Assembly (NCBI GenBank): GCA_946631295.1
Contig: CAMOZY010000005.1
Location: 1 to 64,000, forward strand
Reading direction: 5' to 3'
Source of the DNA: an uncultured Lachnospiraceae bacterium
GTDB lineage: Bacteria > Bacillota > Clostridia > Lachnospirales > Lachnospiraceae
DNA: 64,000 nucleotides
Positions 30,588 to 33,376 of this stretch are shown piece after piece (within the stretch, counting starts at the first letter, position 1; the number at the start of each line of letters is the position of its first letter). The notes under the pieces were generated by a model. That model had not been told where the DNA came from. It worked only from the letters and a program-made list of their open reading frames with translations, and did not search any database. A program made the translations under genes and the position numbers.

Positions 30588-31571
30588 ATGAAAATTTTTG
30601 CTTTTTCGTTAAGACCGTATGATGAGCAGGGATATTTTGAAGATATCTGCTCACGTATGGGAATTGAGTATGGCTTTACAAGTGAATATCCTTCGCTTGA
30701 TAATGCACACCTTGCGAAAGGCTATGATGCTCTTAGCATACTGACAAACACCATGGATCCGGCACTTCTTGACAGATTCAAAGAGCTGGGTATCAGATTT
30801 ATCTCGACACGAACCATCGGTTATGACCACATTGATAATGCCTATGCTCACAGCATCGGTATAAGGACAGCTTCGATATCATACGATCCTACAGGAGTGG
30901 CTGATTATTCGATCATGATGATGCTCATGGGACTTCGTAAGATCATGCCCATCATCGAAAGAGGCAATATCCAGGATTATTCACTTAAGGGAAAGCTCGG
31001 AAGACATATTCAGGACTGTACTGTAGGTATCATCGGAACCGGCAGGATCGGAACCAAAGTGATAGAGCATTTATCCGGATTTGGCTGTAAGATGCTCTGC
31101 TACGACATAAAGCAAAATGATGCCGCAGCAAAGTTTGCAACATATACCGATCTTGAAACCATCTATAGGACATGCGATATCATATCCCTTCACGTTCCCG
31201 GACTTGAGGATAATTACCATATGATCGGAGAAGACCAGATTGCTCTCATGAAGGACGGAGTAATGATCATTAACTGCGCAAGGGGAATGCTCATCGATAC
31301 CGGTGCAATGATCAAGGGACTCGAATCCGGCAAAATAGGCTTCGCAGGACTCGACACCATCGAAAACGAAGCAGGCCTTTACTACCTCGACAGAAAAGGT
31401 GACGTCCTCGACAATCACGACATGGCTGTCCTCAAATCCTTCCCCAACGTTCTCCTCACCTCCCACATGGCCTTTTACACAGATGTCGCCGTCCGTGAGA
31501 TGGTCGAACACTGCGTCGAAGGCATCCTTCAGATGGAAGCAGGAGAAGCTAATCCGTTTGAGATAAAGTAG
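30588..31571 (+). CDS. D-isomer specific 2-hydroxyacid dehydrogenase (D-LDH/VanH-like)
   Basis: 327 aa; TRTIGYDHIDNAYA, VGIIGTGRIGTKVIEHL, INCARGMLIDTGAM. Confidence 0.92.
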   Translation: MKIFAFSLRPYDEQGYFEDICSRMGIEYGFTSEYPSLDNAHLAKGYDALSILTNTMDPALLDRFKELGIRFISTRTIGYDHIDNAYAHSIGIRTASISYDPTGVADYSIMMMLMGLRKIMPIIERGNIQDYSLKGKLGRHIQDCTVGIIGTGRIGTKVIEHLSGFGCKMLCYDIKQNDAAAKFATYTDLETIYRTCDIISLHVPGLEDNYHMIGEDQIALMKDGVMIINCARGMLIDTGAMIKGLESGKIGFAGLDTIENEAGLYYLDRKGDVLDNHDMAVLKSFPNVLLTSHMAFYTDVAVREMVEHCVEGILQMEAGEANPFEIK

Positions 31572-31579
31572 AATTAACA

Positions 31580-31785
31580 GGACTGCGATATGATAGTTAC
31601 ATAAGCGAACCTTGTGAACCCCGTCGGCACTTAGCGAATGCAAACGAAGTGAAGCATGAGCTTAGTACCGTTACGGGGTGAACCAGAGCCGAAAGGCGAG
31701 TGCTGGGCCTGCAAGTACATCCATGTACTTGCGGACAGGCCTTTGATACATCGTGTATCGCGTTGAAACTATCATGGCGCAGTCC
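31580..31785. ncRNA. candidate structured RNA / mobile RNA-like element (unidentified)
   Basis: 19-bp imperfect terminal inverted pair (GGACTGCGATATGATAGTT / AACTATCATGGCGCAGTCC) enclosing at least four internal hairpins including a GCC-GAAA-GGC tetraloop and a GCAAGTACAT-CC-ATGTACTTGC stem. Confidence 0.6.
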
Positions 31786-31795
31786 GTAAATATTC

Positions 31796-33376
31796 ATGGA
31801 AAATTCAAATTCGGATAAACGAATATATTCAGACGATGGTCCGGGACGCCGGACCTTTATTGCCATTGACCTCAAATCCTTCTACGCCTCTGTCGAATGC
31901 ATGGAAAGAGGCCTTGATCCTCTTAAGACCAATCTCGTTGTCGCTGACCCTTCCCGTACGGAAAAAACCATATGCCTTGCCGTTTCACCTTCACTTAAGT
32001 CCTATGGCATCCCCGGCCGTGCGCGCCTTTTTGAGGTGGTGCAGAGAGTCAGGGAAGTAAACGCGGCAAGGAAGCGTGCTATAGGTGGGAAGTCTTTTAC
32101 GGGAAGTTCCTCCTTTGATCCGGATATAAAAAAGGACCCGTTTCTTGAACTCGGTTATGTCATAGCTCCTCCCAGAATGCGCCACTACATGGAATACAGC
32201 TCCAGGATAGTAAGCATATATCTCAGATATGTTGCCCCCGAGGATATGCATGTCTATTCGATCGATGAGGTTTTCATGGATGTAACACATTACCTCGGAA
32301 CATATAAAATGACCGCTCACGAACTTGCCATGAAGATGATCCGGGAAATACGTACCGAAACGGGCATTACAGCCACTGCCGGTATAGGTACCAATCTTTT
32401 CCTGTGCAAGGTGGCTATGGACATAGTTGCAAAGCATATACCCGCGGACAAGGACGGAGTGAGGATTGCGGAACTTGATGAAAGATCCTTCAGAGAGCAG
32501 CTCTGGGATCATAAACCGCTTACAGACTTCTGGCGCATAGGAAGGGGCACTGCCCGCAAGCTTGAAAAAAACGGAATGTACACTCTCGGAGATGTTGCGA
32601 GATGTTCGGTCGGAAGCAGAACCTCCCACTACAACGAGGATCTTCTCTATAAGCTTTTTGGCGTAAATGCAGAACTGATAATAGATCATGCATGGGGATA
32701 TGAGCCCTGCGAGATTTCGGATATAAAAGGCTATGTTCCCAAGGCTACCTCCATCTCAAGCGGGCAGGTACTTAAAACTCCTTATTCTGCAGAAAGCGGT
32801 ATTCTCATCATCAAGGAGATGGCCGAACAGCTTTCACTCGATCTGGTAAAAAAGGGACTTGTTACCGACCAGATAGTACTTTATGTCGGTTATGATGTGG
32901 AAAATGTTCTCGATAAGGACAGGATGAAGAATTATAACGGGGAGGTCATAAAGGATTATTACGGACGTCTTGTTCCCGCACCTGCCGGAGGAAGCATGAA
33001 CCTCGGACACTACACCTCTTCCACAAGGGCTATGGTGAATGCTGCGGCACAGCTTTATGAGCAGATCATCGACATGAACCTTCTCATCAGAAGAGTCAAT
33101 ATCGTGGCAAATCATACTCTCACGGAAGAAGAGGGGGCTTCGGAGGACAGAAAAGAGACCGAGTATGTCCAGCTTGATCTTTTCACGGATTACGAAGCTC
33201 TCGAAAAAGAAAGAGAAGCCGCTCTGACGAGCGAAAAAAAAGACAGGGCTCTTCAGGAGGCGGTTCTTAATATTCAGCAAAAATATGGAAAAAATGCTAT
33301 ACTTAAGGGCATGAATCTCGAGGAAGGCGCAATGACTGCCGAAAGAAACGGTCAGGTGGGAGGTCATAAGGCATGA
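31796..33376 (+). CDS. Y-family DNA polymerase (UmuC/DinB-like)
   Basis: FIAIDLKSFYASVECMERGLDPLKTNLVVADPSRTEKTICLAVSPSLKSYGIPGRARLFEV; YSIDEVFMDVT. Confidence 0.95.
   Translation: MENSNSDKRIYSDDGPGRRTFIAIDLKSFYASVECMERGLDPLKTNLVVADPSRTEKTICLAVSPSLKSYGIPGRARLFEVVQRVREVNAARKRAIGGKSFTGSSSFDPDIKKDPFLELGYVIAPPRMRHYMEYSSRIVSIYLRYVAPEDMHVYSIDEVFMDVTHYLGTYKMTAHELAMKMIREIRTETGITATAGIGTNLFLCKVAMDIVAKHIPADKDGVRIAELDERSFREQLWDHKPLTDFWRIGRGTARKLEKNGMYTLGDVARCSVGSRTSHYNEDLLYKLFGVNAELIIDHAWGYEPCEISDIKGYVPKATSISSGQVLKTPYSAESGILIIKEMAEQLSLDLVKKGLVTDQIVLYVGYDVENVLDKDRMKNYNGEVIKDYYGRLVPAPAGGSMNLGHYTSSTRAMVNAAAQLYEQIIDMNLLIRRVNIVANHTLTEEEGASEDRKETEYVQLDLFTDYEALEKEREAALTSEKKDRALQEAVLNIQQKYGKNAILKGMNLEEGAMTAERNGQVGGHKA

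Follow-up and report, generated by a model that had tools for sequence, protein, structure and literature searches.

What is the 206-base element that fills the space between a D-2-hydroxyacid dehydrogenase gene (30588–31571) and an ImpB/MucB/SamB-type Y-family polymerase gene (31796–33376) in this stretch of Lachnospiraceae DNA? The element (31580–31785, + strand) ends 10 bases before the polymerase ATG, and 11 relatives have none at the corresponding position. Reading the 64,000 nucleotides analysed here (the window) from sequence alone, the first-pass annotation proposed a structured RNA not described before, a MITE-like mobile element, or both. This general reading holds up: as reported below, homologues exist and covary strongly, their copies are dispersed and have conserved ends, and sites without the element occur. 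None of the outcomes that the annotation had named against itself (no homologues, no covariation, a known MITE) was observed.

The window element folds stably and belongs to a dispersed family

The inverted ends, helix arms, GNRA hairpin and coordinates given by the annotation were all read correctly. Folded as RNA, positions 31570–31795 reach −93.7 kcal/mol compared with −59.8 ± 4.2 kcal/mol for dinucleotide shuffles (z=−8.1), and the proposed multi-helix architecture is recovered in multi-branched form. Because the helices are long, the opposite strand, folded in the same way, is nearly as stable (z=−8.05). We found no convincing promoter or terminator belonging to the element in the window, and no conserved motif in the flanks of the copies.

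To search for homologues we used a covariance model, R1, made from 13 other copies with the window copy deliberately excluded. R1 matches the core of the window element (31609–31701; E=2.9e-21) and a second copy in the source genome (G000:C90:78–245, minus strand; E=1.1e-36), which BLAST also finds at 81% identity over 114 bp. The annotation had noticed no second copy, which holds within the window and fails for the genome. BLAST matches occur in 21 of 59 genomes, all of the source genus. R1 extends the family to every one of the 31 genomes in the genus. The number per genome, 1 to 25 copies, is a lower bound since only some candidates were scored. A search of 146 genomes of the order added eight genomes outside the genus, in five other genera, all Lachnospiraceae, while 131 genomes from other families of the order gave zero matches. 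The element is not the orphan that had been suggested: it has copies in its own genome, throughout its genus and in five further genera.

A pattern scan of named genomes, confirmed by the model, returned mostly Lachnospiraceae, comprising rumen and gut metagenome-assembled genomes and the isolates Oribacterium parvum ACB1, Lachnospiraceae FE2018 and Lachnospiraceae V9D3004; a few records are labelled Muribaculaceae or Anaerovibrio, with the names of metagenome-assembled genomes taken as given. According to a home-made gene finder, 89 of 91 placed copy groups lie between genes. The adjoining genes are many and unrelated, and are met in both orientations, with no strong bias in the orientation of copies towards them. 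Plasmid and phage collections contained no match to the element.

Rfam 15 gave no match at E≤5 around the window element and none at gathering score, including for the element in the loci of 15 relatives. Text searches found no description of the family; their coverage left out most subscription papers and all supplementary files, and a 2021 catalogue that lists microbiome RNA candidates by the thousand (PMC8040213) was not compared motif by motif. Taken together, these searches point to a family of dispersed intergenic repeats of Lachnospiraceae that appears not to have been described.

Covariation defines a three-way junction conserved in one sense

The basic element is about 150 nt long and branched; the window copy consists of this family element and a nested module, described in the last section. 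A transcript in the sense of the window + strand is predicted to fold as a closed three-way junction, in which an outer stem of variable sequence encloses a conserved long arm and a GNRA hairpin that is short. The outer stem P1 (5' arm, 31580–31604; 3' arm, 31763–31785; both + strand) is about 23 bp long and nearly free in sequence. Pairing of its 5' arm with 31767–31785 is seen directly in the window, and in relatives all P1 pairs vary and are compensated. Its 3' arm ends CAGTCC|GTAA in the window and CCGTNACT in relatives. The inner closing stem P1b begins with GCGAAC (31605–31610, + strand), which corresponds to a covarying GCNNAC/GTNNGC stem in relatives; its 3' partner (31700–31703 plus 31760–31762) is split by the module, as comparison of G028 with G007 shows. 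The long arm P2 (31619–31678, + strand) is conserved and contains the nearly invariant core CGGYACUUARCGA...GAGYUUAGUACCG. The hairpin GCC-GAAA-GGC (31688–31697, + strand) has a stem of 3 bp only: the outer CAG/CTG pairing that the annotation had drawn around it forms no conserved helix in relatives.

Apart from this main form, the core arm recurs in no fewer than three other subfamilies, which have different closing sequences (L010, L016, L031; L012, L013, L017, L019, L021; L014, L023, L028), with extra hairpins inserted at peripheral positions in L014 and L016.

In an alignment of 13 copies made with MAFFT without use of the structure (A4), 93.9% of cells pair and 41 of the 58 base pairs have changed on both sides; covariation scores 0.609, compared with 0.200 for shuffles and 0.085–0.145 for slid partners. 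In a second set of 92 distinct loci, most of which lie in other genomes, the score reaches 0.641 compared with 0.147 and 54/58 pairs have changed on both sides, in this case in an alignment fitted to the model. Such covariation could in principle arise from templated inverted-repeat repair at replication (quasi-palindrome correction), with no selection on the fold, and the outer stem does change in blocks and stay paired even where the core hardly changes. The interrupted inner helices, however, covary equally clearly, and the G-U excess, the GNRA loops and the conserved core sequence are not predicted by such repair. We therefore consider this explanation very improbable overall and, for the core, largely refuted.

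Several observations bear on the strand sense of the fold. G-U pairs outnumber A-C mismatches 28:8 in A4 and 246:85 in A5, a model-fitted alignment; calculated energies favour the sense of the window + strand over its reverse in 108 of 122 copies; and the four-base hairpin loop is GNRA in 111/116 cases, in six versions. Judged from the aligned copies, the fold is conserved in one sense, that of the window + strand. The family could nevertheless be a DNA-only repeat, in which the fold serves as single-stranded DNA for a transposase, as in REP sequences, with no RNA role and with old copies as debris. Since G-T also exceeds A-C in stability when single-stranded DNA folds, the strand asymmetry alone does not require RNA. 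The loops, on the other hand, are GNRA and not merely GNNA, which argues for RNA rather than folded DNA only.

Copies have moved and often lie as head-to-head pairs

Several copies in G013 are 97–98% identical over about 250 bp and lie in different surroundings, and this composite unit has sharp ends at AGTGACGG/CCGTCACT. Across the family, the 3'-end motif CGTNAC is present in 31 of 188 copies (2.3 expected) and the 5'-end motif ACAG in 39 of 188 (9.8 expected), both being found in a minority of single copies. Among close neighbours, 25 of 27 are arranged head-to-head (−+) and none tail-to-tail (+−), with the REP-head end assigned by this analysis. Compared across genomes, these copies indicate that the family was once able to move.

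The window locus provides an empty-site comparison. The dehydrogenase–polymerase gene order is kept in the 11 relatives that lack the element, and the empty sites, at about 76–78% identity, are too diverged to show a target-site duplication, none of which was established. In nine of these 11, the site holds a hairpin that resembles a terminator and has T's after it (AAAAGGTTCGGG... with CCTTTT). This position, together with the 10 bases that separate the element from the ATG, would fit a leader or terminator that regulates the polymerase gene at this particular site. Against this stand the same element beside many unrelated genes in both orientations and the relatives that have the same gene pair without it; as an account of the element, site-specific regulation is barely credible, and as the general role of the family it is already refuted. 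A local side effect of the window copy on the polymerase gene is possible.

In nine relatives (L151–L159, compared with window 31571–31796), a TAGAAT/TAAAAT box lies a few bases before the polymerase ATG, after the terminator-like hairpin. The box hints at a separate and perhaps leaderless promoter, which would have been lost in the window copy.

Clustering of neighbouring open reading frames revealed no transposase or reverse transcriptase among recurrent neighbours of the copies; the clusters are chiefly housekeeping sites orthologous to one another, plus one broad group with ABC transporters among its members. We also looked for an autonomous parent between widely spaced inverted copies, where the open reading frames resemble, by eye from their sequences, purM, carbonic anhydrase and tRNA nucleotidyltransferase. 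No recurrent mobility gene was thus found near copies or between spaced inverted copies that would mark a parent transposon with the same ends.

Some copies are retained at orthologous sites

Where species share a copy at the same site, the conservation of the core can be compared with that of its surroundings. At the site of an mnmA-like gene, occupied in several species, the core is 86–97% identical and the alignable flanks 78–84%; at another shared site the values are 99% and 86%. At a site beside ribosomal-protein genes, in contrast, the core (82–91%) is not better conserved than its flanks (90–92%). These identities support, at the level of sequence, selection on copies after insertion at some sites, not everywhere. 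At two sites the core is more conserved than adjacent coding DNA, an observation that also speaks against the DNA-only repeat. Changes in P1 within sites are mostly compensated (up to nine) and broken pairs are few (0–3 at these sites), some of these comparisons possibly pairing non-corresponding halves of the head-to-head unit because the unit is inverted in G016.

The mnmA-like site (L058, L032, L302, L304; G012, G028, G007, G016) was also examined for its arrangement. The head-to-head pair is wholly inverted in G016 relative to G028 and G007, and in G012 the core is gone from one half of the pair. Inverted copies thus seem to drive local inversion and decay.

Relation to known structured RNAs and repeats

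HEARO, or IscB-associated omega RNA, is a structured, dispersed RNA that can occur without its gene. The annotation had been loosely reminded of this type, and the two share a structured dispersed RNA of similar length. They differ in that the present element has no Rfam match and its genus no intact IscB: the RRXRR domain is missing from 30 of the 31 genomes and intact in 0/31, so the HEARO/OMEGA assignment was rejected. The single RRXRR (IscB-type) match among the 31 genomes is a lone, broken remnant (G009:C96:6167–6409; L310).

Like REP, BIME and REPIN sequences (PMC3116915, PMC3733652), the element is palindromic and intergenic, often forms head-to-head dimers, carries an unpaired tag at one end and has no autonomous gene. 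REP sequences, however, are simple hairpins of 20–40 bp that are often linked to a RAYT (GTAG type), whereas the Lachnospiraceae element has about 150 nt, is branched and has no linked RAYT; by size, branching and the missing RAYT it falls outside REP. Movement by a linked RAYT was rejected as well, as genes with a Y1 domain occur in 9/31 genomes and no copies lie in the 12 surroundings of such genes that were examined. The dimers and the one-end tag, which recall REP organisation, favour the DNA-only repeat, and the small number of genomes with Y1 transposase genes, together with the lack of flanking copies, weakens it. With the loops and the conserved cores set beside these points, we regard a DNA-only repeat as unlikely, though still a serious contender.

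A further likeness is to structured intergenic MITEs of bacteria such as ERIC/RU-1, Correia/NEMIS, RUP and bcr1–bcr18 of Bacillus cereus, which are likewise 100–200 bp long, intergenic, multi-copy and dispersed, with pairing ends and a stable RNA fold, some in UTRs or between operon genes (PMC2229807, PMC3446304). The present family shows the corresponding MITE features, being short, non-coding, multi-copy (1–25 scored copies per genome) and placed at dispersed intergenic positions. It differs from them in its three-way junction, GNRA loop and nearly invariant core arm, in an outer stem that is almost sequence-free yet paired, in its different phylogenetic family, and in that no terminal inverted repeat or target duplication was established for single copies. 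In kind, the family is a structured non-autonomous intergenic repeat, new in having a branched, RNA-constrained core.

A proposed mechanism

We propose, with somewhat better than even confidence, that the element is a non-autonomous mobile element of about 150 bp, of the MITE/REP kind, constrained as RNA, moved in trans and acting in neighbouring messages. A trans-acting factor, recognising either the folded strand or the ends, would produce new copies of the single element or of the head-to-head pair. Once inserted near gene ends, the element would be carried in the intercistronic or UTR RNA of neighbouring transcripts, where its fold may alter their processing, stability or read-through; such an effect would account for continued selection on copies at several sites. 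In ERIC and some bcr repeats, the fold is reported to influence processing, stability or read-through (PMC2229807, PMC3446304). At the window locus, the element stands where relatives have a terminator, and the polymerase gene may consequently now be joined to the dehydrogenase transcript.

A mobile RNA in the strict sense would go further: like a SINE or an OMEGA RNA, the folded RNA would itself act as intermediate or guide in transposition, with some protein to serve it. RNA-level constraint does coexist with mobility here, but IscB and any relation to Rfam are missing, and no recurrent reverse transcriptase or nuclease gene is found beside copies, which makes this reading improbable. Equally doubtful is a mobile element of a new class, comparable to a bacterial SINE, for which the folded RNA would be the route of copying or the form recognised by some protein, and which would repeatedly be kept as functional RNA at conserved chromosomal sites.

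With the proposed non-autonomous element, a major bacterial family of gut and rumen gains a widespread, strongly structured RNA repeat that Rfam lacks. Its behaviour as a mobile element goes together with a constraint at the RNA level, which lasts at some orthologous sites, so it would offer a tractable example of the passage from mobile DNA to functional RNA.

The complement of a nested 56-bp module carries CsrA-like sites

The annotation had counted the two hairpins at 31706–31741 and 31745–31759 as parts of the element. They belong instead to a 56-bp module (31704–31759, + strand) that is cleanly present or absent between the orthologous copies in G028 and G007 (GTGTTC[56 bp]GCGTTG versus GTGTCCGCGTTG) and is also found alone elsewhere: the module is an insert separate from the basic element. 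A model of the module matches 26 places in 10 of the 31 genomes, mostly outside the main element, and 11 of its 20 pairs covary (score 0.291 versus 0.080); the module constitutes a separate family of dispersed hairpin pairs.

The complement of the first hairpin (GUACAUGGAUGUAC; 31711–31732, minus strand) resembles the CsrA consensus RUACARGGAUGU, in which GGA lies in a hairpin loop (PMC4347634). It reads GUACANGGAUGUAC; the base before GGA varies and GGA is kept in the loop in 23/24 copies, so that ACA-GGA, with GGA in the loop of a hairpin whose pairs covary, is present on the minus strand. CsrA is encoded in 28 of the 31 genomes, including all ten most complete. As in CsrA/RsmA-binding RNAs, there are two hairpins, the first with GUACANGGAUGUAC and a loop GGA, in a host with a CsrA gene. 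Unlike those RNAs, the module is a mobile 56-bp unit, its GGA strand in the window is antisense to both neighbouring genes, and its second hairpin there has CGA. The module complement is therefore a lead, a candidate CsrA-binding site proposed from its sequence. If it does bind CsrA, the module would carry two CsrA sites from place to place and could rewire regulation at each point of insertion.

CsrA-site-like hairpins with GUACANGGAUGUAC and ACAGGAUGU are carried by the module complement in the window (31704–31759, minus strand) and at loci L328–L353. Several free module copies (L330, L329, L331, L338, L344, L350) apparently lie inside a larger element of about 250 bp closed by GCGGGT...ACCCGC, possibly another structured repeat family.
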